NCBI RefSeq assembly: GCF_000003815.2
Contig: NC_049991.1
Span: 10,871,024 to 10,935,023, forward strand
Length of the DNA stretch: 64,000 nucleotides
Origin: Branchiostoma floridae
Lineage: Eukaryota; Chordata; Leptocardii; Amphioxiformes; Branchiostomatidae
Direction of reading: 5' to 3'
The notes below the pieces were generated by a model. The model saw only the letters and a list, made by a program, of their open reading frames with translations, ran no database searches and had not been told where the DNA came from. Below, one piece after another: positions 2,658 through 62,000 of the stretch (position 1 is the first letter of the stretch; each line of letters starts with the position of its first letter). The translations under genes were made by a program, and so were the position numbers.

Positions 2658-5600
2658 CTCCCCCAGAAGCCATGCAGACTGTACCTGGCTGGAACCAATG
2701 ATACCAGACTCTGACATGCAGTTGATCATTATGACTTATTATCTTCCTGCACACCAGATATATCAGGGCTACATCAGGTTGAGCCAATTGCAGACTGATA
2801 CTAGGAGCTGATGTCATTCGTTACTATGGCAACCACTTGCTCAACTGATGTCCATCAATTCTTGCTTGTTGATTGCAAGAAGGTACTTTCTTTAACCTCC
2901 TTGCTGATTGTGACAAAACGAGTCTGTACAATATTATCCCTGGAGCAGAAGATTTGCCTAAACAAGGTTGCATACACACAGATCCTGGAAATATGTGACT
3001 ATGCTTTGAGCTTAACCTTGAAGACAGATTTGTATCTCATGTCTCATCCTAGTATCTTTTCCTACAATAAGGATCTTAAGGCAAACACAACTGCACCAAG
3101 ACCAGCTATCTGTAACAGTCCAAAACAGACTACACTGATGACAGGGGAACACAACAGACAGGCATTGGGAAACATTTTTAAATACATCCCATTTAACCAA
3201 TTTCTTATCTCTACACTCAGGCCTGAGCTGTGACAATTTTTAAACAGTTTGGTTCACACCCCTGGGATACAAGTACAATAGCACTGCCCCCTGTGGTATA
3301 CTAATCACTACTAACTGCCTGAGTTTGATACAACTAGAACTGCCCACTGCTGGCGGTACAAAGACAGCAGATGTAGATTTGCACATAGGAATATCTGCAC
3401 AATAACAGCTAGGAACCCACATAACAAAACCCAAGGTTCAATACAGGTCACCACGGGGGCAGTAGACAGAAGCCAAGCGGAATTCAATTAAAGATCAGGC
3501 AATAGAGGCAGCCATGGTAGAGACTGGGTAATTGGGGAGCCCAGTGGTTGTCAGCAAGGATATTAGTGTTCTGAGACAGTCTGGGTGGGGGAGACCAGAG
3601 GAAGACTCCTGTAGTATGTCACACCTGGTAGGGATTACAGACTAGAGCTGGCAGGGGAGGATGGGGAGCACCTGTCCTACCTCCCAGTGGGTGGTGGTAT
3701 TCAGACAGAGCAACCCAGTTACATGTATGAAAAGCTTGGGCATTTAAAGTCTTTCTCACATGCCTGTTGAAGTATTCAGACAGAGCAACCTAGTTGCATG
3801 TAGATAAAAAAAGTCATTCTCACCTAGTACCATGTAGATAAAAAGCTTGGGCATTTAAAGTCATTCTCACGTACCTGTTGAAATGTATCACCTGATCATA
3901 ACCAAAGACATCCAAGAGATACAACATTTGACAGCTCTCTATATAAAACATAGCTTGCCTTCCTGTGGAGACACATGCACTAAAAAAATTGTCAGAGCCA
4001 AGTAGAAGAAAATATACTGGAAAACAGGATCGAAGTATGGCATGCAAATAACTTAAAAGTCAAACACAGTCGAAACCTACCTCTGGCTGCAAATCTATGA
4101 TGAACAGGAAAAGCCTTTCTGACAGCATCTTGAAGATACTTGGAAAGACGTGACTCTCTCTCCATGTCCACACTTCTTACCAAGCTATGAACAGTCTTGG
4201 TTTCTTCAATACTCCCTAAGTCAACAGCGACCTTCCAAGGTTCAAGAGCAAGTCAAAGGACAAGAAAACAGAATCCTTCCATATAAGACAGCATGCCAGG
4301 AAAATGTCCCCCCAATGACATGTTTGCAGCGATATTCTACTCCAGGTTGGGCCCCAGCAGTGTCAGCTTCAAACATGTGGTGGGTGACTCCTGATCCACA
4401 CTTCAGGTACCAGCTCTCTTCCAGTCGCAACTGTCATCGATACTGTCAGCTTACAAAACAGGAAACATCCACTCCTCTGGCAAGGTACAGGTCAAGATAT
4501 GTAATCTTGATGTTAAACCTTACTGTAACTTGAGTTCTCCTCTCAAGGCCTACAAGGGAGTCTCCAACTGGTCAGCGCTCAATTATCTAGTCTTGGTGAT
4601 GCTGACAACTCCCTATCTGCATCATTCATCAGGTTTAAACATCTACACCTCCTGATCCAAACTGACAGAAGGAAGCAAATTGTTTTTCCTATGATAGCTG
4701 CAAGTTTCCTGATAGGATAAATAAAGGTAAACTGGTTGGCCCTAAGAGCCGAGACAGATTGGCTCCTTTCCACATCACCAGTATCTACTGAAGAGTAACG
4801 GTCCACTCAAAACTTTTAATCCCAGATAACAGCAGTGTGCAGGCCTCTTGTTTTGACATATACTTGACAGTATTGGTCCTACTTTGAACCCCCCAGCTTG
4901 GAAGCTTCAAAAGAAGTCTGTACAGGAAGCACAGTGTGCAACTTAACAACTGGAAACTGGTGCCTGAGGCAATGGCTTAAGAGTTGTCAGTATGACTTTG
5001 GGCTAGTCTACAGTGATCTAGGTACCAGAAACTAAACACACATGCTTCGACTGGGGAGATACAAAATAGGTTTTGGAATCAGCAGTGGAAATCCCCTTGC
5101 TGTAACTGGATACTTTTTTGTTCTTCAAGTTACTGATTGTTTGCATAGAACTTAACTGAATAGCATATCAAAGGATTATCCTACTGTTTGACTGTAGTAG
5201 TGGACAAGATAGACTATAATGGACAGGGATATTTGTTTTACTATGGATTAAAAGGCCTATGTACTAAAAAGAAAAAAAATTCTTGTTCAGTGCAGACGTG
5301 AACCTTGTCATTGATGCTGTGCTCCTTAATTGACATGCCACTTCAACAAGTAAGGCAGCACGTTATATAAGCTTATAGGACTTTACTTTGGGAAGACAAA
5401 TTTCACCTGCATCACTTAGAAGGAAAATGTTCTGACAAGTTAACAATCAAAGTGATGGTTGACACAGTTGGGAGGTTTAATACCGTTGTCAGACGTATTG
5501 CATCAGGAAATCTATCTTTACAGTTCTCCAAGAAATATAGGTGACACAATGACAATGGTGGTGACAATTTTTAAAACATTTGATTTCTGATGCAAGTAAT

Positions 5601-8600
5601 CTAGTACAAATTTGGTACTGTCTTCTACCAAAAAAAGTTGGAAAATAGTACATATCAATATGATAGGGCTATGAATTGTAAAATTTTATCATATTTACAA
5701 TTATTGATAGAAACATGGAAATGAAGATACACATGTAGTATGACACTGTGACAGCATATCCCCAATGCCTATTATCCATTGCTATGGATTACAATATACG
5801 GATGCAGTCAGTAAGCATGCTAAATTTACAGGATTTAATATTCTGCACTGCTTCGACTCCCAATGTCTTTAAACGATTTCCTCCTAAGTTTCCGGCATCT
5901 CCATTGGTGGCAACCCTCCAGGTCTCAGAGTGCCTTTAGAGGTAACAAGGCCAATGTGTTGCCACCTAGCTAAGTCAGTAAGTGCTCCCACATGCTGAAG
6001 CTTTCCATTTGCCTGTCTCAGGACCCCTTCACATTTCACCTGAGTTCACCTGGAATGGTCCATGTCAGCAATGTTAGAAAAATGTTGCATGGCACGACTC
6101 ACAGAAGGATCATAGCTGTAAACCCTGGTTGAATTTTATAGCATAGCTGTAAGTTACGAAGTAGATATAAAGTACACCACTGAGTTAGGGTGGATGCAGT
6201 GGAAAGCCTGAATAAACATCAATGTATTTATCTAGCCCACATGCCAGCTGCTCTTGAACCTTGAGGAACTGAAGAATTTAAAGGCTCACCTTCAGTTATC
6301 ATGTTGTGCGGGTCTGCAGCAGCTTCCATAATGTCACACTTCCACAGGACAGCCAACATTTATCTGTACCACGTCCATTAATGTCAGACCCGCTCCCTCA
6401 AGGAGCAATAACAGAATTAATGAGCTGTACATTAACTTCCATCTGCCACAAATTTCCTTTAAGTACCCTACGGGCTCAGGGATTTAGCACCAGGAGATAC
6501 TTGCTAACTAATAATACCACTAAACAGGATGTTACGTATAGTCCATGTATCGTTCAACAAACCAGAATCTACTAGACCTACTGAATAAGCTGGCTATCAC
6601 CTATATGCACAGTGGACAATATCAGAGTACACAATCAATTCGAATCAAGGCAAGAGCTCCCTTGTGGTTGACCCTGTCAGGTGGTTAATGGAATTGTGGG
6701 GCAACTCAAGTCAGAATTAACAGAATTACTCTCCCTGGAGTCTTCGCAGAAATGAGGAGTAAATGCTAATTGTGGGCTAGATGCATATTGGTGTTTCAAA
6801 TCATGTTTAATAATGAGGATTTGAGGTTATATTAATGACTTTATTGCTGACCAATAGACTGAGAATGCCATATTTTCATCCTTTTCCCTTTAATAACAAA
6901 ACATTCTAATTTGAGGCAAGCTCCAAACTCAATATGCAAATATTCAGATAAAAACTCAAATGTTCAGACAAAACTAGCCACATGCAACCAGGCAACTAAC
7001 TGTACACGCGTGATACTGTTATCATGGTTTGCTCATGACTTAGACTCTATAACATTCTGATAACATATGGATGTTAAGGGCAGGATAAACCATTCTACTT
7101 TATTTTCATAGCAGCGATGTTTACAACAGTTACTGATAAATTAAGAGAAGATCAAGTTCAATCATACATCAAGACCAGCTGCTGGTCTGATTTCCCTGGT
7201 GGCAGGGCTGCCTGACCAAACCCATACACCATCTCCTCTTTCAGGGTCAAGAACAATATCAAAAGTCATTCCTTCACTGAGTTAAACCACCTTATGGGTA
7301 TTTTCTACAAGTATAAAATCACCTTCACATGCCCTTCAATGCCACATTTAACAAAAACCCACCAACTGATTCCTGTCAGACAGAATAGCTGGCAGGGAGG
7401 TTTTGTCCCTGACATTTCTGGTCTGTTCAATCTACAAGACTGCTAGACTCTATGAACTGGTAAAGTTACAGTCTTTGAAAAATATATACAGTCAATAGAA
7501 ATATACATACTGTCAAATGTCTTCTCAGATGCAGGAGTATGAAATGAAACAGACTGTTATTTTTTTACTGAATAGGCAAAGAAATCCAATCATTAATTCA
7601 GAGATCATACTAGACCTTAGTCATGTGGTGCATGGAGATTAGAAATAACCTGTCGGAAGATTAAACATGGTCCCTTAATGTTCGTGGCTTTATTCTGCCA
7701 TGTATTAATTATAACAGTTAGCAATAAATCAAGAGAAAACTGAGATTGGATTTTCCACTCACTTGCAGTCTACTTCTCATAATTTAGTCACATCACATTA
7801 AATTCCTTTAACGTTATACAAATTATTTCTATTTTTCCTGCTTAACTCTAGCAATTCTAAACATGCAACTGTCTAGGTTTCCAGGTTTAACACAGAAGGG
7901 TAAAAATTTGTCAGAAATAACATACTGTATTATCCTTGACATTGAAATACAGTAACACAAAGCTAGTGGATCCTTCCCAACTGGCCAGCTGGTTCCTTTA
8001 CAACAAACATCAATACATGCCTAATCATTTGCTTTTAGAATACATTTTTACCTTACCTTTATTACAAGAGGCCATCCTGCTCTACAGCTTCGGGAAAGAC
8101 ATGACAGGTTTAGTCTTATTGTGCTATTCAACAACATGAAACTCTCCTCTCGGAGTTGTCCTCTCTGCTTACTTCTATTACTAGCACTGAGACAAACCAG
8201 ATAGCGTACCCCCCTCTTGATTCGTGACATAGGGCATCATCTGTTTCTATATTCATGTAACCTACTGGCTAGATATGACAAATTACAGCAACCACATGAC
8301 TGTTAACTTGGCAATTTCCTGCTGACAGGGGCCAATGAATATGCTAAGAGTTTTTGAACTTGGAGTTCACCAAGCGGACAATTTGGACAGACAGCTTTTG
8401 TGAGAAGAGCCCCCAGCAGTGTGATTTGTGGTCCAGACGGTTACAATGGAAATGAGTTTGCAATTTGTCGATCCCAGCTCAAGTACCCCATTCCAATCAC
8501 ATATATAAAGTTTATGCCACTATTGGCAGTGCAATAGATCTCATTGCAACAACAGCACATCCATCAGAGAACTGCCATTGCTGACAGGGACAACTGGCAG

Positions 8601-14600: not shown

Positions 14601-17481
14601 ATTGACGTGCATTCCTATTTATACAACGCTAGATTAGTTATATCATTGGGTGAAAATACATTGTGAGAAGCAAAAGGTGCCCAGAACCCGGAGGAATGAC
14701 AAAGACAATGTCCATGACATTTGTAAATTGACGGAGGCAGAGTTCCCGGGCCGCCACAGAGACGGCGGCAGCAAAGTTCTTATGGGGGGATTGAACTATT
14801 GTGTCAGCACATGGAGCGCCGAAGGCGCGACGCATTCAAGGGGGGTCCGGGCGAATGTTCCCCTGGAAAAATTTTAAAATCAAGACCCTCTTAAATGCTA
14901 TTTCCTGCATTTTCGGCAAATTTTGCCGACCGACTAAGATAGGTTGATTTTGACATTTTCATCAAATTACACATGATTATACTCGTAGCTTTGGCCTCCA
15001 CCCCCAGAGCCCCGACATATTTTTACCAATTCGTGCTCGGAAGGCACGAGGCGTTGCAATATATAGTTCCGGGAAAATTTTGAAATCTGGACCGTCTGAA
15101 ACGCCATTTACTGCATTTTGAAGGACAGATTTTGCCGTAAGACGAAGCTAAATTAAATGACATTTTATTAGAGAGAAAGGTTGATTTTGTGCGAAAACCC
15201 ACGCCCTTAACATATTTTCGCCATGTCGTCGTGAGCGCCAAAGGCACAAGCCGTTTTAATGGAGGTCCGGAGAAACCTCATTTTCTGCATTCTAGGAGAA
15301 CTTTTTGCCCGAAACTTAGCTATGTTTGACACTGAAATCTGTCTGAGTGATAAAGTTTTGAGGGCGACGCTTCCGCAACATATTTTACCATGTTCAGAGC
15401 CGAAGGCCGGGAGGCTCGGAGAAATTTTGAAATCTGGACCCTTTGAAACGCCATTTCCTGCATTTTCAGGGGTTATATCTGACATTAGACTTCCTTTGTA
15501 TAGTATAAAGGGTTACGAAGAATTTCTTGGTAACGGTTAACGGTGAATTCGGGATAACAAATAACGGTTAACGTTGAATTAAAACGACCAATAACGCTTC
15601 ACGAAGAATATACCGATAACGATTAACGTTGAATTAGAGCGGGTCGGTAACGATTAACGGTGAATCAAAATGGCTCATAACGCTTAACGGAAAAAGGCAT
15701 GCAGACCCTCTCAACTGTATAGAGATGTGATTCTAAAGGGATAAACTATGGGATTTGCAACCTGATACAGACGATGTAGATGATTATTCCATAGGTCCCT
15801 ATACTGTACAAGTCCTACCACAGTCAGCTGAGGAGCAAAGAGTACCCTCTCCATAACATCTGACACATGTATCTTGCAACCTGCACACACCCAGGTGTTT
15901 TGGGCAGAGGCATGCTAATCAGAGATGTAAACTATGTGGGGCACAGCTGTACTGAGTGCAGGAAAAGTGGTATGGGAAATCTCATGTCACTTTGCCTTAC
16001 CAAGGAGCTCCTTGGCCTTACTGAGGGTAAGCTTTGCCTTTTGACTACACAGATATGAGAAAGTTAGGGATTTTATAGGATGAGCTTTCAGTTCCCCGCT
16101 GAAAATGTCTGCCACATCATTTCTGGAAGAATTGCAACAATCTTTAACCTTTTAACAGATCTTCAGTAAAGCGCCACAGAATCCCCAACAACACAGACCA
16201 CTCTCAAGGAAAAATCTCTTCAAACATCTCTTACAGTGAGTTAGATTACTTTGAAGGTCACAATCCATATTCATGATGACTGCATTTGAATTGTTTTTAT
16301 GAGTGTGCTGCATTATGGATCAGATAAGATACATTTTGTATGACTATCAGTAACGTTTAATATTATGACCAAGGTTATTCTTTAATATAACGTCAAATTT
16401 CCTACAGTTATGATTGACACAAAAGGAGCTTTTATCCTGATAAAAGCTAGCTCCTTGCTGACACTGACTGCATGAATAATGACAAGCAAATCACATCTAA
16501 TACTTCATGTTTAGAAGTTACCTGTAACGGTTATACCTAAGATGTTACATGATGTAACGTTAGCAACTTTCATGTAACAATGTTAACTGTTTGTCACCTA
16601 TTGTAATGATGATTTTAACTGTCATCACATCAAAGATCATCAAAGGAAAGTTGTGAAACTAGTGAGGTGTTGAAAAGGTCAGGCAAGTTGCCATTTGCCC
16701 AGATTGTTGATCATGTTTTAGGCTACAATGTGGGTTGCAACCACTGCTGATGTCGCTGGTCGGCATGTTTGACAAGACTGTTGTGGAAGTTTCTTTACAG
16801 TGTTTACGTTTAACTGGCAAGTCACGTCGCCTGGCTCTGCTGCTACTGATCTCTAATTTGTTATCGTGCTGCCTGTCAGTGATAAAACATTACCTGACCT
16901 TGAAAGATAAAAAGGCCCCTCAACCACAAAGTAGAGCAAGGTAATCAAAGAACAGAGTAGTTTTTCTACTAAACACAAAAGATGGAATATGGAGGAGGTT
17001 GTATCAGTTTCCTCTGGTCACGGCTGCTCGTAGCTTCAGAACCAAAACAAACCAACATGGCTCCGATTTCTACACAAAACAAAAAGGACAAGAAAAGTTA
17101 AGACTTACGTCCATTCTCCTTCATCATATCCTTCAAGACTGGGTGGTCCAGGACGTCTCTGTGTATCACAGCCAGACGTCTTCTCAGGAAGGCCACGTCC
17201 TCTGCAAGTTCATGATCCGAGTCCTCCAAAAACGGCACGAACTCGGCGCGCTCCCGTCCATCAACAACAGGACACTCGCCTCCCTCGTCCAGTCCCGCCC
17301 CCACTTCCAGCTCGATGTCCTCCTCCAGATCGTCTTGTAGGGGGGTTCCTGCAATGCCATTCCGTTGTCTGGGCTGGTTGATAAGTCCCAGCAACAATTC
17401 TTGGGGTAGACTCTCAAGATCCGAGGAAAAAGAATCCTCCAAAGAGTCGAAGAGGTCGTAAGTCACACCTCCTACGGCCAT
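2658..17481 (-). CDS. Unrecognised protein-coding gene, 5' part (four exons seen, continues off the left edge)
   Basis: I do not recognise this protein. The start exon 17481-17109 opens at ATG (MAVGGVTYDLFDSLED...), encodes an acidic leader and a helical stretch (DVAFLRRRLAVIHRDVLDH), and ends at a GTAAGT donor in phase 1. Three further minus-strand exons join in matching phase: 4215-4081 (acceptor CTTAG, contains ESRLSKYLQDAVRKAFPVHH), 3962-3875 (acceptor CCACAG, contains MLYLLDVFGYDQVIHFN, donor GTACGT) and 2746-2658 (acceptor GTGCAG, contains VRVWYHWFQPG, donor GTAAGA). Together they give 228 codons without a stop. The phase agreement across three junctions and the protein-like composition are the evidence. 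The first intron would be about 12.9 kb and could hide further small exons, so the join between exon 1 and the 4215 exon is the weakest point. The upstream side of the ATG is richer in CpG, as expected for a promoter. It might be a conserved coiled-coil or adaptor protein, but I assign no function. Confidence 0.6.
3699..3893. repeat. Degenerate tandem triplication spanning the 5' splice site of the exon at 3962-3875
   Basis: Three imperfect copies of a ~55-75 bp unit lie at about 3699-3774, 3775-3828 and 3829-3893. Shared blocks are TTCAGACAGAGCAACC, CATGTA.ATAAAA, AGCTTGGGCATTTAAAGTC and TTCTCAC.T.CCTGTTGAA. Read on the minus strand the last block is TTCAACAG followed by GTACGTGAGAA, that is, the end of the exon at 3875 and its donor. 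The first copy repeats this as TTCAACAG|GCATGTGAGAA, a GC-type pseudo-donor. The middle copy has lost the block. Confidence 0.6.
14460..15716. mobile_element. Non-autonomous DNA transposon, copy 1, 6-bp target duplication, subterminal iterons
   Basis: The element is 14466-15710 (1,245 bp). Its ends are inverted: GAGGGTCTGCATG at the left and its complement at the right. TCAACT flanks both sides (14460-14465, 15711-15716), so the target duplication is 6 bp. Near the left end the motif TAACGCTTAACGG occurs three times at 31-bp spacing (14491, 14522, 14553). Near the right end about six variants (TAACG.TTAACGGTGAATT) occur in the same orientation between ~15530 and 15690. Such directly repeated subterminal motifs usually bind the transposase. 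The interior holds about four diverged units of roughly 190 bp, each with 'AAATTTTGAAATCTGGACC' followed by 'GAAACGCCATTTCCTGCATTTT'. No transposase is encoded. A 6-bp duplication fits superfamilies such as Dada or IS3EU, but I cannot assign it. A second copy lies at 37201-38409. Confidence 0.85.
16000..16015. repeat. 16-bp palindrome CCAAGGAGCTCCTTGG flanked by 5-bp direct repeats
   Basis: The perfect palindrome CCAAGGAGCTCCTTGG is bordered on both sides by CCTTA (15995-15999 and 16016-16020). It shares its CCAAGGA/TCCTTGG arms and the 5-bp flanking duplication with the palindromes at 51222 and 61344. On its own a 16-bp palindrome could be chance; the shared arms and duplication make it a likely member of that set. 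Confidence 0.5.
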
Positions 17482-39722: not shown

Positions 39723-42700
39723 ATGAACGCGATCATCGCCTTGTGCCACTTCTGCGAGCTGCACGGCCCGAGCGTGTTGTTCCACACACAAGCCTTTCAC
39801 TCCAGGGAGCCTCAGGTATGAACACCTGCCTTGTTTCTGTGAAACAACAACATCATTATAAAGTTAATCATTAATTTAACAGACATTTATTCAATGTCAA
39901 GCATGATAATTTCTCTAGTATTCAGATATGCAGATTGAATACGAGCGATCTTTTTTTTCAGTTGTTTTCTGTTTACACCGAAAAATTGAAATTTATACCT
40001 AGAAATATACACAAAGTCATGTATCATGCCCATGACATTTTGTGTATTTTGATGTCTTTTATATCATACTTTTCGCTCCCAAAAGCTGCCTGGCTGGGCC
40101 CCAGATTGGAAATGTGACCTAAGCCTAACTGGGAGTGCTGGTATATGATATTTATAATGAACCTGTTGTTTATTATCCCATATTTTAGAAAGAAGAATGA
40201 ACTCCTTAATTTCATAGAATTCACCAGGGAATAAACACTGCAGGGTTTTCTAATAAAGTCTTAAAATCTCAAACTGCATGTTCATCATTATAAGTCTGTA
40301 ATGATTTCGATAGATCAGATAACAGTGATGTAGGAGGCTCTCGTTATACCAAGGACTTTATATAAAGTCCTTGGCAATACTAGTACATGTATGTGATGAT
40401 GCAATGTCTCTATTTCTAACTCCAAGGGACTGGATGCAGAGTCAGGTGAAGAGTCAGGCTCTCTTGCCTCCTTCCTGTCGTCAGGCCGGCGTTCCCGGTC
40501 TCAGTCAGCAGCATCCAGCACCAGCAGTGTGTCCAACACTCCCAAGAAATCAGAAACTTGTCAGGTACTACAAACAAGTACATCATACATACTGGTCATG
40601 GAATTTATGTACATCATATAACGTCCTTGGCATTTGCCCATATGCTTTGTTGTTAGTTGCAATCCCATTGATAAATTGCCCGACACATTTCATCATGGTT
40701 GACAAGATGTTGCCAAGCAACCCATTGTTGAAACATCTTCCCTGCTGTGAACTGATGAAAGCACCAAATTTGTACTGGCTGCAGCAATAGTCTGCCTGAA
40801 GGTATGAAGCTATTTTATCATTTTCTCACCTTTTGTTGTGACAGGCCTGCAGATCTGTGCCCTCAGGCCATCCAGGCTTCGTCAGCAAAGACCCAGATAC
40901 CAAGATAAGCTATGTGAGCAGTCAGTACCCAGAGCATCCCCAGCTCTTCAGTATCGTCAGACAGGCCTGTGTCCGAAGTCTCAGCTGTGAGGTAGGTCAT
41001 TTCTACCCGCTACTTTGCAGTACTACTTCTTCTACTTCTACACAATACTAGACAAAACCCCGCATGGGGCATGACGTCTAGGACAGATTGGACTAGTTGG
41101 TTGAACCTAGGAAAAAATATTGTATTTATGGTTACCTGACCAACACCCTAGGCTTGCTGCCCCAAATTTTTGGTAGGGACATAAAAGTTTGATCTGAGTG
41201 ATAAAAATGCTGTATAGTCATTTTCCAACATATTTTCCCCATTTATGTCCCAATAGAAAAGTTACATAAATGGACCCACCAAACCTAAGCTCCCAAATAT
41301 GTTTGAATCATGCATTATTGTAATTGTATATTTCTTGGATCACTTCAGCTGAAATCTAAAGAAAGATAGACTTGATACCTACCTGCTGACATTTCCTAAG
41401 GCCTTACTCCCTGTGTTGAAAAACATTCAGTTATATGATTAGCCCTTATTTAATCCCAGATTGTCAGAAGAAGAACAGACCCTGCTGTGTTATCTGATGA
41501 TGTTGCAGAAAAGAGATTAAGACACTTACTGCTTGAGAAGTGTGGGACGCAGGGCGTGCCTTTTCACAATAGGGCAAGTCAGAGTTAGTTACTGTAGACA
41601 GGGTCTGGGCTCTCTGTAATGTTTATTAACATTCTGTTGAACATATTTGGTTATAATCAACGTAGAAACATTGGTGATCTTTATTAACCTACAAGCATAT
41701 CTACAGGTGGCATAAGACAATATCAAAATAGCCAAGGCAGTATCCAACTGGCCACCTGGATACATATTAGATCTTTATATACTAATTGTCATTTTGTCCT
41801 TCTCTTCTAGGGTGTTACTATTTTGCATGTACTTACTCAACCCTTTCATTCAGTAAACACAATATGCATTGCTATATGACCAAATGATATTAACCTTATA
41901 CAAAACTAATAGGGTGTACTAAACTACAGTCAAACCTGCCCAAGCGACCACCTCTTCTTAGCGACCACCTGGCCATTGCAACTGCTTTTTCTCGGTCCCG
42001 AAAATTTTCCCCATTGACGTAAGTATTAAGCAACCTCTTCACAACAACCACCCAGCCAACATAACCACGGCCACCAAAAATTGAACCAAATCTACCGATA
42101 ACGAACACGTCATTTTCAAATTTTGAGGTGTCATCCATTTTCAATGATAGCTAGCGCAATTTTGTGCCGAATTCGGTCAGTTTGCGACAGATTTTGACTA
42201 ACATTATGATGTTATCTTCAAAATGAATATGGCGACGGACGCAGGTGCTTGTGCTTGCCATTTGCCATTAAACACAAGGGAAACCATTTAAACTATGCAT
42301 CGGGTATGTTGTGAGTCGATACTCTTCTAACCGCCCACCTGACAAAATCGACTGCTTTTGCCCGATCCCCAGGTGGTCGTCTTGGGCAGGGTTGACTGTA
42401 CTTTCATGGAATGGTGTAACATGTTTAGTACTCACACTTACTTTAACAAAAATGTAATTATAATCATAAACTATGTAAGGAAAACCTGGTTTATTGCATG
42501 GGGGACAGAGATGTCTGGAAGGAGAGGGTGGACTTGGTCCGGGCAAGCAGCCAGCGATGATGATGATGATGATGATGATGATTGCATAAGTACTAGTGAA
42601 TAAGAAAAAAATTAATGATATGCCATGTCACTTACTCTAGGTGTGCCCTGGACGAGAGGGTCCCATATTTTTTGGAGATGATCACTGGGGTCATGTGTTC

Positions 42701-45700
42701 AGCCATACATTCTTCATTAAGGACAGCCAGGCCCGAGGTTTCCAGCGCTGGTACTCCATCATTGTTGTCATGATGGACAAAATCTACCTCATCAACTCAT
42801 GGCCCTTCCTGGTCAAGCACATTGGAGAGATCATCAGCAAACTACAGGACAAGGCAATTAAGGTGTGTGGTTTACTTTGAGAAGTGTGTTTTATAAACAA
42901 GTCTTTATTGACTGATTTAAGGCCTAATTGCTGTTGTAGCTCTGACTGGAGTCATCGCATAACAAGTCATGTTGTATACCACAGATATTTCAGGAGAAGG
43001 ACCAAGTAAATATGTAGTGATGTTCTATGTTATCACAGGTATTCATTTGTACCATATATGTGAACAGGAGTAGTATCTTTCCATGAAAAGATGTTACCAT
43101 ATGGTATTTTATGTTGCATGAAAGGTATATGATCAGGAGCGGTACCATGAAAAGATGTTACCATATGGTATTTCATGTTGCATGAAAGGTATATGATCAG
43201 GAGCGGTACCATGAAAAGATGTTACCATATGGTATTTCATGTTGCATGACAGGTATATGATCAGGAGCGGTACCATGAAAAAATGTTACCGTATGGTATT
43301 TTATGACAGGTATATGACCAGGAGCAGAACCAGTGTCCAGAGAGAGCCAGGAGAATGAACGAGTCGTTCATGGCGCCGGGGGATTTCTTCCGGAGGCAGC
43401 GTGGTGGGGATCACTTCAGGCCACTTGTCACCCTCACAAAAGATGATGGTTTATTCAAGTGAGTTAGAAAGTCCTCTGTTAAATGTTTTATGTAACATCA
43501 CTATTCATTCAACTCAGCAGTGTATCTTATGGTTTGAAAATAAATCCAATTACTGTACCATATTTATAAGGTATACATGTCTTAAAGCTGTTTCAATATT
43601 GTTCAATGTTATTTGCTTTATTCGGAATAAAACAATCTTTAGATAAAGCCACCGCCTCATTACCAGTTAGAAACAAACTTTTCGATGCATGTGTCAAACC
43701 TATTCTACTTTATGGCTCAGAAATCTGGGGCGCATTAAAAAGCCCTAAAACCTGTCCCATTGAATCTGTTCACCTTAAATTCTGCAAACAAGCACTAAAT
43801 ATCCCCAGACCAGCATCTAACCTTGCCACAAGAGCGGAATTAGGGAGGTACCCCATTCAACTGGAAGCCTCCCTGAACGCTATCAAACACTTTCTAAGAA
43901 TCCGTCAAAACGTGCCAGCTGACAGTCTACAAGCCGACGCCCTATCTTGTCAATTACAACTAGATGCAAATGGAAACAAGTGCTGGGCGTCCGGCGTTCG
44001 TAAGATACTGGAGGAATGCGGTTTTGCCTACATATGGAGATCTCAGATATCTCTAGGAACAAACCTATTACCTATAACCAACGCCATCAGCCAACGATTA
44101 AAGGATATTTATATTCAAACATTTAAAGCTGAAATACACAATGACAACCGGGACAAATCTTTCGGTAACAAATTACGAACCTATAGATTATTCAAGACTA
44201 TTTATAAAGAAGAAGAATATCTGATGGTGAAAAACATACAACACAGAGTGGCTGTCACTAAACTCCGGATTAGTTGCCACAAGTTACATATCGAAACTGG
44301 AAGGCACAACCGCACCCCTCTGCAGCATAGAGTCTGCCAATTTTGTGATTTGCAACAAGTCGAAGATGAACAGCATTTTATTTTACACTGTAAACTGTAC
44401 CATAATGAACGGATTGTGCTTTATGAATATATAAGAAAAGAGTTCCCATATTTTGAACACCTTAATGCAACGGATAAATTTCTATTTTTGATGCGCCTAG
44501 ACAAACCCTGTATATCAAACATTATCTGTTCCTATATCTACAACTGTACAAAGAAGCGAGAAGATGTCGACCATCCTGTTAGCTTAGTACCTTCAGCTAG
44601 TTAATTGTATCTTGTTGTTTTTGCATATGTTTGTTATGTCTGTTATCAGTCATGTCTGTTATCAGTGACCTGTACCTAGCCCGTCGAGGCATGAATGTAC
44701 AATAAAGGTCTTTCATTCATTCATTCGTTATTGAATGTATCCAGGTTTTCCTTGTCATATGATAAACCAATATACAATTTAATTGAATGAGAAGAATATA
44801 AGACAAGGCCTGATTACCATGGTATCTCTGTTGATACCTGGCTAATAGTGGCTGTGTTTTTAAGGTGGCTGCACCAGTGGTTTGTATGGGTGCTAAAGGC
44901 TGGGGGAAACAGGATGACAGAGAAACTACTGGAAGGGCCTCCGACAGAGGACGTCCTTATAGACATGGAGAAACAGGAAGGTAGGAAATTATGGCAGAAT
45001 ATCACTACCGTGAAATCCAGGCTTAAAAAAGTGACAAAACATTATTCAATGCTATTAGTAATGTTCAACATACAGTAATCTATTGATAATGGGTCAATTG
45101 CATTCAAATTTGTTGGCTTGCATTCAATTTCAGTCCAATGTTTGGTGACAAATCATTCCAAAAATGCAATGTATTCTTAGTGATTTTGAGAAAAACTCAT
45201 TTGCAGTACTAAACTGCCTCATATGTCCAATTTTCTGATACTAATGCTGTATTGTGATTTGGCCTAATCTGCCTGCATGAAATTAACTTGATCAATCAAT
45301 TGATCAATCAATCAATACAGAAACGGAAGAAGGTTTCATTAAGATCAACACCAAGCCTATGCCAAGCCCAGACCAACCCACAGCTACTGAAGAGCTCCAG
45401 CAGACGTCCCCACCAGAGGCAGAAGAGGCTGGTGCAGAGGGTGATGCAGACAGCACAGCACCAGTCTTCACATCCCTCAGACACTTCAGACAAGTAAGTC
45501 ACAATCTGTGCTTGAAATGGTGATCTCATTGAGTCTGCGCAAGAAATCCTGTCCTAAGAGTTTTTGTAGAAGGAATTTTGCATTCTCCTGTCCTGAAACT
45601 TGCTCTCAGTGTTGAATACAGCCTTTTGTTTGTTTTTTCACAGATAATTGGCAGTCAAGGGTTCCATTCTATTGCACACCATATCCTGATCGGTAATCAA

Positions 45701-50032: not shown

Positions 50033-53000
50033 ATGGCGATCGGTGTTCTGATGGATCTGTTCCGACGCCACTCCAGATTTTCTGCGGCCGGGGCCGTGCT
50101 CCTCCTGGCCACAGTCATCATGTACAGGTAACCGCAGTTAGTTTTTGAGTTTATGAGTTTCTGACAACTTCTAGGTCCATGGTTCTGAGTTGCACAAACC
50201 CTTAGAGATCGACGAAAATTGGTGTTGTTTACCGGTAGGATTTTTTATGCTTCCACGCCCACATCCCACATATGGACATCTTCTCATCTGGCATATACTG
50301 GGGTTGTCATGGGCTACGGACATTTCAAAAGTGAGCTTTGGATACCACTTTTACGGATATTCAAATATTTTTATTTTTGGGGTGTATGTGTGAAATATTA
50401 GAATAATAGATCATTAGATGTATCGTTATGTTTTTATCAGGTGTCACCTAGGAGATGTTTTCAAGGTGAAATTACTAGGAATTGATATGTACGTCAATAA
50501 AAGCATAGGTGATAAAGGTACAGAAGTAAGGAAATGTTGTTTATTTCCTATAGAATATAGGCACACTTTGACAATTGTTGAACAATTTTTAGTACCCTGC
50601 TGGCTTATAACGTTGAATCTATCAAAAATCAACAACCTCTGTGAAACTGTATTGATCATTTGAAGAGATCTAAGGATATTCAGTGAATGAATGCTAACGT
50701 TACTTGCTGTAGAAAAAGTGAAAGACATGTAAGATGGAATAGTTAATGCCAGACATTTTATGTTTTTCTATCCTTGGTGCCCATCTGAAGTGGTGCAGTG
50801 CTGGAGTGGATGTCCTCTAGGTATCTTTGTTTTGTATTGGTGAAAGCTCCTTGATGAGCATTGGATCTTCCCTGTCAATGCATGATTTTGCCTTGGTTGG
50901 AGTCATGCATTTTTTTCAGGCATGTTGAAAAAACTTTGCATTGATTTTGGTTTGTGCACGGCCACGGAGTGTCAGAAAGGGCTAAATGTGTGTGAAAAAA
51001 AATTGTGCCAAAATAAAGATTAGTATGTAGTTAACATTTGACAATTTGTATGAGTACCTAGCTTTCAAAGCTCATTTTAAAGAATATTCAAATGCTGGAA
51101 ACAACTGTCTTTTGATGTATGGCAATCTATTTGGCTGCTTCATAAAAAAATGCATTGGAGAATGACACATGTCTAGGAATGTCTGTAGGTGCTTTATACA
51201 TGAAGGTACAGGTGGGTAAGACCAAGGACATTATATGAGACGTCCTTGGTAAGACTAAGACTTTCTATCTTACTCCTCCCAGATTTAAGGTTTGTTGTTG
51301 CTTACAATTTTTCTAAGGTGGCATGCTATTGGGAAGTAATTACCTTTTGTTAGGAGAGTGGCTGATCATCAGTATTATTGATAAGGCAAAAATATATATG
51401 ATTAGTTCATTTATGTTAGAATGATTCAAAATTTCTTTTCCACAGCTACGCACATATCTTCATGATCTTCTGGTCATTTGTGGGTGGAATGGTACTTTGC
51501 TACATGTTTTTAGGGTAAGTGTATATTATAATATTGAAAAAATGTCTGCTTATTCTGTCTTATTTTAACAAGTTCTGTGACACGAAGTCCACTGGTCTTT
51601 TTCGGTTTCAATTCCACAACCTTTCAATGTGACAGAAATAGCAATTTTATAATATGTGCATCATCTTTTACAGAAGAACCAAAAACATGATGCCCAATTT
51701 TCTCATCATGTACAACCGCAAGAAAGAGGTATGTCTTCCACTTAACCATTACATTTTTGTATAAAATTTTTATTAGTAGTATTTTGAAGTGATAAACTCA
51801 CATACATATGTATTGTAGAATCACGTATTTTGTTATCCTTTTTTCACAATACTCTTGGTGTCTTGGCTGACTGTTATCTTTCCAACATGTACATATCTTT
51901 CATTTACTTTATTATCTGTCAATTGTTGTTTTGTTGCAACCTGTACTCAACTCAGTGGGTATGTGTGTACAATAATTTAAAGGTCTTCATTCATTTATTT
52001 GGGCCAAACATGTGTATCAAACATTGATATCTGTTCCATTCCTTGCAGCCAGAGTTGGATGACCTGGAAAGAGAGGCCCTGAGAAAAAGCTGTCCTGTAT
52101 GCGGGGACCCCAGATGTGCCAGGCACAGGTAAGTCTGGCGCCTCCTTCTTCTATTCCTTATATGTGTCCAGGGAGTCATGAAAAGCAGGCTGAAGCCTGA
52201 GTGATGTAACCCAGATAAAACGAAACAAATGAAATGAAACATATCATACTAGCAGAGTAGGCTACACGATGGATTGAGTCTGGTAAGCTTGTCAGCATCT
52301 GAAGTGACATCATGTATATATGTATTTTAAAGCTTAAGTTAACACAATTGTGGGGTATTTTGCCAGAAACAAAGTCCTTGCTAGTCTGGTATCCAGCTGT
52401 ATTATAGCTCCCAAGTCTCTTCTGTCCTCTTAGCAAACATCTGCGGAGAGGACAGAAGAGACTTGGGAGCTATAACACGGCTGGATACCAGGCTACATTG
52501 CAGGTCCTTGCAGCCTGAGAATCTCTTTGTTTCCTTTCTACCCAGACCTGGTCTGTCCATACTTGACCTCCAGCCATGGACCAGTTTGAAGGTGACAGAA
52601 AAAGTGGATATGGCATTGTCTGAGGTCAGCAATATTTCCCACATGCATCTTTCTTGCACAGCTGCTGTATGTAAAAACATCACATTTTTAAGCATTGCTT
52701 GTTTTCTAGATACAGGAAAATTAAGAAATGCTGTGTTTTGTCTTCTTTCAGTTTCTGGAGCTGGTTTTAAGAGACTTTGTTTACACCTGGTACAGGTAAG
52801 CACAATCATGCTCCTTTCTTCCTCTTGTTCTTTGCCACAAGGTTCAGTAGACACTGATACAGGCTACCACAGCCTGTCACTCTCTTCTCTTCTGCTCTGT
52901 ACCTGCACTCTGACTCCTCCAAGATGTACCCCAGCTCCTATAAGTCCTGCATAACATGCTCCTTTAAAATGCCTATTGACTAAAGTAAGAAAGGAATTTC

Positions 53001-59000: not shown

Positions 59001-62000
59001 ACTGACTTTCCAAATTCCCAAACTCTTTCAGTTGATGACCGACTCCTGGCATTATATGATGACCAGGAGGACCAAACACCAGTAAGCATCAAACAAACCT
59101 ATCCTTGTCCTTTGCTATTACAATTATTTCTGCATAACACTGAATACAATAACTGGTCAGGATACGTTTCACTGAGATACATAATTTACTTTTGTAGGTT
59201 TGTAGTAATGATGTTCTAAGGCAATCAAGTAGTACCTTTATTTACACATAGCCAGTATAACCACCCTTCAGTGTACCACACCATCTCTGTAGGTATGCAC
59301 CATGGTAGCAACTAGTTACTGTAAATGCATTTAATTTCTCGGAAGCGGGAAAAGGACTGTTCGCGATGGTTTTAAGTTCGTGGTAGCACCATCCACTGTA
59401 GTCTCTTACTGCCATGGAAAAATGTTCTCGGTGGATTTATGTTCGCGGTGAATTGGCAACGCGAAAACCGCGAACATTTCTACATTTACAGTATATTACA
59501 CTGAACATCTACAACCTGTTACACCTAGATTTTGCACATCTAACTTGTAAGAATTGTTTGAGAATTCCCCTTCTATACTTGGTGGCGGCAAGTTCTACTA
59601 ACATAGTGTTATACATGTAGAATAAGTTAGTAATATCAGCCAGGATCACCATTTCTTCCATCACCTGTTCCACAGGACATCAGCCCCATGGAGCCGTATG
59701 AGGAGGAGGAACTAGAGGATGAGATTGAGGCTGAGTTCATCCCGAAGGACCTGAGTGCCTGGAGGGTGGCCATCCCTAGGGCAGAATCCAGGTCAACAGT
59801 CCTCTATGTTTCTTTCATGCTCATTGTTTGATGAGCCTACTTGACTGTATAGGAAACTGTAAACACGTAATATGTAAGTCAAACTACAATCAATTTAGAA
59901 ATCTAACATTTCCTTTAAGACAGTGGGTGTTATCAACTGAATTTTTGAAATGGTAAAAATGTTGGTAAGTTGCTTGCTACATCACCATGTAACTCAGGAT
60001 GTTGTTTTGGGTTTCAGATATGAAAATGGCAAGCAGTACTATGTCTACATCATCTCAGTACAAAGAATAGACATCAGAGAAGGAGGTAAGTTACTGTTTT
60101 ATAGTATGTGAACAATATCTTGCAATACAATAATCACTACAGGTAAAGCCGTCCATAGTGAAAAATATTGCGTTACTGTATTCCTTGCTTGCATGCAATG
60201 TCTTTTCTCTGTTGTAAGTTTAGCTACACTATTGCGATACATTGCACCAAGGTTATTATCATAGAATGATGTAATTGATATTTTTCTATTACAGAAACCT
60301 CAGGCCCATCTGGATGGGAGACTACAAGGTAGGGATTGTGTTCCTTCATGTATTTACTTGTCTTACATATCTCTTGAAAGTTGAGATGAAACTGCACTTC
60401 CTTGCACAACCAGTTGGTGGTCTTTTTGCTCTGCTTTGCCCCCATTGTACGAGAGCTACAAAGAGTTTTTAGAGACTTTTCTCCCACTTTCCACTTTACA
60501 GAAGGTACAATGAGTTCTATGTCCTGGAGAACAAGCTGACAGAGTTTCATGGGGAGACCCTGCTGGAAGACTGCTGTCTCCCCACCAAGAGGATCCAGCT
60601 CACCAAACCCAGCCAGGAGTTCATCGACTCCAAAATAGCCATCTTCGAAAAGTGGTTGCAGGTAAATAGATTAGATTATCGCTTTTAAGTTTCACAAAAC
60701 AGTCATTGATTGAAGGAAATTGTTGTAACTGTATGCATACGTGACTGATGAACCCCTTCAACGATTTTAAGATTTTGTCTCTTTTCAAGACTTGATACAT
60801 GTATAGTAGACACATACATACACCTAGAGTAAGTTGAACTCAAATACAATAAATTTTACTCTAGATGACATATGTAATGTACGGAATATGAAACATGAAA
60901 CATCCATGTTTACAGTAACTGTAGGTTGAAATTGTTTTGATCTGAGCTGTACATAATACATGATTTGTGTGGGTGTAATGTTTGAATATTCACATGTCAG
61001 CGATATCCAGACAAGAAAAAGAAAGCAAAGAACTGCATGATTGTATGATAATACCCAGACAATCAGCAGAAATGAATAGTCAAGAGTTACTGGAAAAACT
61101 GTATGTAAGATGATGCTTATGTAATATGTTGTTCACAGTACAGTTACCTTATCCCTATATAACCTCCTTGCCTTATCAGAAATGGCAAGGTCATTGTATG
61201 TCGCTGTGTCAATGGAGGTCAGCCATAGAGGATTGAAGGGATAAAGAGAAGTCAATAAAGGAGAAATCTACAAATCCTATACAAGTAACAAGTTGACCAT
61301 TGATATACAGATGATGGAGATGTGAGGTGTATTGTGTGTATGATCAAGGAGGTTATATAACCTCCTTGGTATGATGAAGCCTTGCCTGTGTGCTGTGCAG
61401 GTGTATTGTGTGTATGATGAAGCCTTGCCTGTGTGCTGTGCAGGTGTATTGTGTGTATGATGAAGCCTTGTCTGTGTGCTGTGCAGGTGTATTGTGTGTA
61501 TTATGAAGCCTTGCCTGTGTACTGTGCAGGTGTATTGTTTGTATGATGAAGCCTTACATGTGTGCTGTGCAGGTGTATTGTGTGTATGACGAAGCCTTGC
61601 CTGTGTGCTGTGCAGGTGTATTGTGTGTATGATGAAGCCTTGCATATGTGTTGTGCAGGTGTATTGTGTGTATGATGAAGCCTTACCTATGTGCTGTGCA
61701 GGTGTTGCTGACCAAGCCAGCACTGAGAGGCAGTGAGCTGGTGCACAGTTTCCTGTCACCGGGGCCGGAGTTTGAGACCAGGCTGCTGACAGATGTCAAC
61801 ATTGGTACAAACTCTTCATCATTCATGTTTGAAACAACATCATACTCCAATATTATACTAGTTCACAGTACCTTCCTGGTATCATGAACTACATGTACAT
61901 TGTTGCAATAAATGTCCAGACTTTGGAAGTGTTATAGCTATAAGCAAAGCTTTATTTTAGCCAAATACAGCTTTCCAGATGAATTTACATGTATCTGTTC

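Follow-up and report, generated by a model that had tools for sequence, protein, structure and literature searches.

Footprints of departed transposons are usually known singly, from laboratory crosses. One of the described systems closest to the structures reported here is the 1360 element, which is also called hoppel or ProtoP. In Drosophila, this member of the P superfamily is described as making a 7-bp target duplication with the motif GTTNAAC, and the P element as making an 8-bp duplication with the motif GTCCGGAC (PMC3276498, the accessible part). P transposase reportedly makes a staggered cut, at the transposon end on the transferred strand and 17 nt further in on the other, so that single-stranded extensions of 17 nt remain (PMC7776569, PMC10983969), and the break left at the donor site can be repaired by end joining (PMC7776569).

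Here, we analyzed a 64,000-nt stretch of Branchiostoma floridae DNA (hereafter, the window) and found that a 24-bp palindrome, present once in unit 1 of a minisatellite with a GTATGAT duplicated around it, is very probably the excision footprint of a cut-and-paste DNA transposon. The minisatellite has eight units, the first of 74 bp and the other seven of 43 bp, and units 2-8 show the empty site in all cases (7/7). The first-pass annotation had pointed out both the longer first unit and its seven empty neighbors, which our analysis bore out: the 31-bp difference is real and is made up of 24 bp of perfect palindrome and a repeated GTATGAT. A palindrome with a duplicated flank had likewise been recognized, and this part stands, whereas its division into 26 bp plus TATGA shifts the boundaries within the same sequence; 24 bp plus GTATGAT is the cleanest reading, since the alternative requires a mismatch in the outermost pair. 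The interval originally given (61339-61374) covers the insert and all but one base of either 7-bp flanking copy, and its boundaries are corrected in Table 1. Assignment of the host gene to SNX14 was not confirmed, as a 72-aa exon peptide from the window had no match among solved structures (E 0.001) or in Pfam (E 5).

Table 1. Footprints, flanking repeats, and minisatellite in the window
Position	Strand	Feature	Flanking repeat	Remark
2876..2903	-	28-bp decayed footprint (probable)	TTGATTG/CTGATTG, 6/7	
16001..16014	.	14-bp palindromic footprint CAAGGAGCTCCTTG	GCCTTAC, exact	
16421..16457	.	37-bp decayed footprint (probable), AGCTTTTATC family	TTGACAC/CTGACAC, 6/7	by eye, outside strict scan
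40350..40373	.	24-bp palindrome CAAGGACTTTATATAAAGTCCTTG, possibly an older footprint	GTTATAC/GCAATAC, 5/7	outside strict scan
51223..51248	+	26-bp footprint CAAGGACATTATATGAGACGTCCTTG	GTAAGAC, exact	
61154..61170	-	one-sided footprint, 17 nt CCTATATAACCTCCTTG	CCTTATC, exact (61147-61153, 61171-61177)	
61325..61699	+	minisatellite, 8 units (74 bp + 7 x 43 bp)		one array listing starts at 61369
61338..61344	+	left GTATGAT copy, 7-bp target duplication		
61345..61368	.	perfect 24-bp palindrome CAAGGAGGTTATATAACCTCCTTG, two transposon ends head to head (footprint core)		
61369..61375	+	right GTATGAT copy, 7-bp target duplication		

The palindrome has company within the window. A strict scan returned five sites (2876-2903, 16001-16014, 51223-51248, 61154-61170, and 61345-61368), and none was found in any of four controls (one reversed and three block-shuffled sequences). 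The one-sided footprint at 61154-61170 lies ~170 bp upstream of the palindrome at 61345-61368. The pattern suggested in the first-pass annotation, CCAAGGA-N(0-14)-TCCTTGG, was also enriched, with three matches in the window versus none in 100 shuffles, yet all three are other sites (16000, 40349, and 51222); the minisatellite palindrome escapes that pattern because its left neighbor is T rather than C. The window additionally contains a 64-bp tandem repeat at 43081-43305 (3.5 copies, 96% matches).

Genome-wide searches were carried out on one assembly of 513 Mb in 431 contigs. The 24-mer, with up to two mismatches, has 251 copies, compared with 0 for its reversed control, and the looser pattern CAAGGA-N(0-30)-TCCTTG occurs at 6857 sites versus 865 in the reversed control. 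Pairs with gaps of 31-60 are in excess too (2091 versus 873), partly owing to another repeat of 59-70 bp; per gap length, the excess is approximately five times denser at the short gaps. That separate palindromic repeat, with CAAGGAGTATAGCCGGC ends, accounts for 5 of 34 places among the gap 31-60 matches listed (C1:939227, 1650953, 4380295, 6728129, and 6761967), and one of its ends is decayed in 6728129. Among 15 loci with the exact 24-mer, nine have an exact 7-bp flanking repeat and two a 6/7 repeat, and several are copies of one larger repeat. In L007 (1412-1545), the flanks of a 24-mer footprint are duplicated in inverted order, as in a fold-back, and a 41-bp unit, made of end plus flank, is repeated in tandem.

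The length of the target duplication was determined from 73 unique CAAGG..CCTTG pairs no longer than 60 bp within 194 kb including the window, in the choice of which the flanks played no part. An exact 7-bp repeat flanks 23 of these pairs, a further 8 match at 6/7, and the other 42 at 5/7 or fewer, compared with 0.13% exact 7-bp repeats when flanks were swapped between pairs. The first-pass annotation had expected duplicated flanks in excess of a control, and that is what we observed; the pentamer that it proposed was not, since with the boundary placed at CAAGG, exact matches of 5, 6, 7, and 8 bp are found in 0, 1, 23, and 2 of the 73 pairs, respectively. Placing the boundary one base further out gives an inner 5-bp match in 27/73 pairs, 23 of which also match at both outer bases, and these extensions to 7 bp rule out a 26-bp element with a 5-bp duplication. 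Because the outer bases vary (G at position 1 and C at position 7 are each seen in 58%), they belong to the target rather than to the insert. Reading 39 exact repeats in both orientations yielded the average GTYWRAC. Among 33 sites chosen by the CAAGGA-N(0-30)-TCCTTG pattern alone, 12 have an exact repeat, 6 match at 6/7, and 15 are not repeat-bounded, which is more than the ratio of 865 control sites to 6857 would predict. Thousands of such scars seem to exist in the genome: scaling the repeat-bounded share (18/33) to 6857 sites gives ~3700, although this is a crude estimate based on the beginning of a single contig.

We then examined how the ends meet inside the duplication. Among the loci examined, the 20-nt end CAAGGAGGTTAAAGAATCAC is present without change at 31 independent sites; GAAAAGAGGG and AGCTTTTATC ends were seen as well. 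At 28 of the 31, an exact 7-bp repeat follows 19-44 nt on; in the other three, L023 matches at 6/7, L113 is bounded at 20 nt by a 6/7 match (the script gave a later match at 66), and L114 has none. The first end does not continue past ~20-21 nt, a limit read at sites selected for a 20-nt end and with the partner reference derived from the same inserts, whereas the partner end measures 0, 2, 4, 5, 7, 9, 11, 13, 16, 17, 18, 19, or 20 nt. Shorter first ends fall outside this count because the 31 sites were selected for 20 nt of the first end. The commonest product is a 39-mer, present at 10 independent sites and accounted for by two 20-nt ends that share a single C where they overlap. Altogether, 47 unique insertions, many at loci chosen for one end, comprise 30 distinct inserts, with the 39-mer at 10 sites and the 24-mer at 8; each is found unchanged at unrelated sites whose 7-bp repeats differ. 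Perfect palindromes make up 11 of the 47 (e.g., CAAGGAGCTCCTTG, CAAGGAGGTTAACCTCCTTG, and the one at 61345-61368), and one-sided inserts, with one end wholly or almost wholly missing, are present at L108, L110, L113, L115, and L116, as well as at 61154-61170 in the window. CAAGGAG/CAAGGAC ends gave 59 bounded inserts (exact 7-mer, within 300 nt), 54 of them shorter than 45 nt, compared with 10-14 over 300 nt for control words shifted upstream. No excess was found for CAAGGA followed by A or T (5 bounded inserts versus 0-7 in controls) or for CAAGG followed by T, C, or G (13 versus 12-15).

From this anatomy, which is read directly, we infer a chain of events from cut to repair. If the 17-nt offset of Drosophila P is a guide, the transposase would cut one strand exactly at the element end and the other ~20 nt inside, so that each flank would keep a single-stranded tail of ~20 nt bearing the transposon tip. 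End joining would proceed through trimming, annealing at short matches, fill-in, and ligation; filling and joining both tails would produce ~40 bp, and trimming would generate the shorter series. Perfect palindromes would arise because both tails have nearly the same sequence and could anneal at a self-complementary stretch, which may lie within TTATATAA at 61345-61368 and may be AGCT or TTAA elsewhere. The fusion of ends most likely occurs at each site as the element leaves. The target duplication flanks transposon tips only, and the junctions vary from one fixed end; partner ends graded from 0 to 20 nt opposite a fixed end of ~20 nt point to repair of an excision break with long tails, and not to a mobile 24-bp element.

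Longer elements with the same ends and a flanking duplication, which the first-pass annotation had envisaged, were looked for at 60 loci with long ends, none of which held an intact source element having both ends and a 7-bp repeat. The long end CAAGGAGGTTAAAGAATCACTTT (up to 2 mismatches) has 98 matches in the genome and 0 in the control. All of the first 20 such loci, mostly of one variant, hold 37- to 41-bp inserts flanked by exact 7-bp repeats (20/20), two sets of them (3 and 2 loci) sharing flanks as copies of larger repeats. A further 20, picked as differing (16 of the CAAGGAGGTTAAAGAATCACTTT family and 4 of the CAAGGAGGTTGAAAAGAGGG family), comprised 18 short bounded inserts (15 exact and 3 at 6/7, the longest being 52 nt in L122) and 2 loci without a repeat. 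The second family, CAAGGAGGTTGAAAAGAGGG, searched as a 21-nt pattern with up to 3 mismatches, has 477 matches versus 17 in the control; among 20 of its loci, 10 are copies of one larger repeat, which carries a one-sided 20-nt footprint (ACCAGAT/ACCAGAA, 6/7), 4 hold bounded inserts (two exact, one 6/7, and one 5/7), and 6 lack a repeat. At L035, L079, L087, and L119, the sequence runs on with ATA past nt 20, the first A belonging to the search pattern. These loci are possibly what is left of elements that were not excised, but the 8 kb downstream of L079 or L087 contained no partner end whose repeat matched. Scarcity of intact copies is expected in kind, because elements that move by cut and paste can scar every site they leave without becoming numerous.

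The first-pass annotation had offered three origins for the palindrome, of which the excision footprint is the best supported, a micro-MITE is disfavored, and two fused ends agree with the anatomy. Were the 24- to 41-bp palindrome itself mobile and moved by a transposase in trans, it would be natural for the 39-mer and the 24-mer to recur among the 47 unique insertions (10 and 8 times, respectively) with differing 7-bp repeats, and for no intact larger source to be found among the long-end loci fetched. MITEs, however, are characterized by many copies of one internal sequence, whereas 48 of the first 50 CAAGGA-N(0-30)-TCCTTG matches listed, unfiltered by flanks, are distinct, and the 47 unique insertions comprise 30 different inserts, the recurring 39-mer and 24-mer being the exceptions. 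Moreover, a single end meets a graded series of partner-end lengths, and the one-sided inserts could hardly transpose as two-ended elements. We consider a micro-MITE improbable, and excision of a larger element, rather than a miniature transposon, most likely gave rise to the palindrome.

Fused ends could also be left when a resident transposon loses its middle in place through aborted gap repair, with no completed departure. This would yield the same two ends and target duplication, and both routes would pass through an excision break; aborted gap repair would, however, be expected to leave ends of many lengths, whereas the retained ends stop at ~20 nt at the sites read and 54 of 59 bounded inserts are shorter than 45 nt. 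We consider internal deletion improbable as well. The fold-back in L007, with flanks inverted around the 24-mer, is the kind of structure that a local template switch or hairpin mutation could create with no transposon involved. Such a process, or chance, is scarcely credible as an account of why these ends should recur with a 7-bp repeat at sites that are unrelated, or of five sites in the window scan versus none in four controls.

Taking the palindrome as an excision footprint, we compared it with the described systems, and the best reading is a P-superfamily-like (1360-like) transposon, the evidence for a link to P transposase being circumstantial. The P superfamily is marked by a 7- or 8-bp duplication and a palindromic GT..AC motif, and both are found here. 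Judged by target site and not by end sequence, the likeness is to 1360, given the 7-bp duplication and the similarity of GTTNAAC to GTYWRAC. The putative long staggered cut would resemble that of Drosophila P (17 nt versus ~20 nt at our selected sites), and the ends of zebrafish Pdre2 begin with CA (CATACCTGTCAAC), as do the footprint ends (PMC10983969, in part). Both elements differ in their 8-bp duplications, and the portions of the reports at hand do not mention for them the mass accumulation of footprints found here. The P-MITEs of Anopheles gambiae, in the accessible account, are similar in being short non-autonomous relatives with perfect flanking duplications; they differ in having 8-bp duplications, P-derived ends of up to 100 bp, and a common internal sequence. 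The GT..AC motif alone is not exclusive to the P superfamily, since the hAT element hobo has it as well: its target motif GTNCGNAC resembles GTYWRAC, but its duplication is 8 bp. Excision of hAT elements leaves little or no transposon sequence behind. A hAT origin was rejected on duplication length (8 bp in 2/73 pairs versus exactly 7 bp in 23/73). Transib and ProtoRAG, whose ends are of the CACTATG type, were rejected because a 5-bp duplication was seen in 0/73 pairs at the CAAGG boundary and the ends here read CAAGGA.

We found no description of such footprints among the publications listed in literature searches (titles and abstract openings, with few subscription journals covered). With thousands of scars seemingly present in one genome, past jumps can be read one by one, and because many retain intact 7-bp repeats, target choice, cut geometry, and repair outcome (microhomology, filler, and trimming) could be measured in bulk for a natural transposon. 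Such scars also carry a warning for annotation, as they can easily be overlooked or labeled as palindromic repeats or micro-MITEs. A bolder proposal, which we regard as doubtful, is that departures of a 1360-like P lineage, with a staggered cut of 20 nt, are preserved by the thousand in this genome and arrivals hardly at all, excision so far outrunning retention that the sources are nearly or wholly gone from the assembly. If this is true, germline excision might be very efficient, or elements might survive only in cells or alleles that escaped sequencing. Should the scarcity of source elements hold, the balance of arrival and departure would be directly countable.

The P-type transposase domain PF21787 occurs in three places in the genome. 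In L035, a PF21787 frame lies between two CAAGGAGGTTGAA ends at 283 and 8240, and the 7-bp flanks are unmatched; this locus is only suggestive as a source, since its flanks do not match and it holds other solitary ends. ORF B of L035 has 22 matches in the genome, three of which, on C1, C3, and C7, are near-identical where read. They belong to a large repeat with an ORF B relative (C1:10147741, C3:28322944, and C7:19368460), the C1 and C7 copies of which are alike over 2.3 kb upstream and downstream to the end of the C1 stretch, with no element edge reached. A P-type transposase was therefore not established as the source, given the unmatched L035 flanks and the absence of an edge to the ORF B repeat in the sequence read. 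Within 9.9 kb of L034, no such ends were found. This locus contains a 767-codon open frame (L034:3392-5692) with a P-type RNase H domain (PF21787) and a match to the RAG1 importin-binding domain (PF12560); in a sea slug, a transposon composed of sequence resembling the RAG1 N-terminus has been described.
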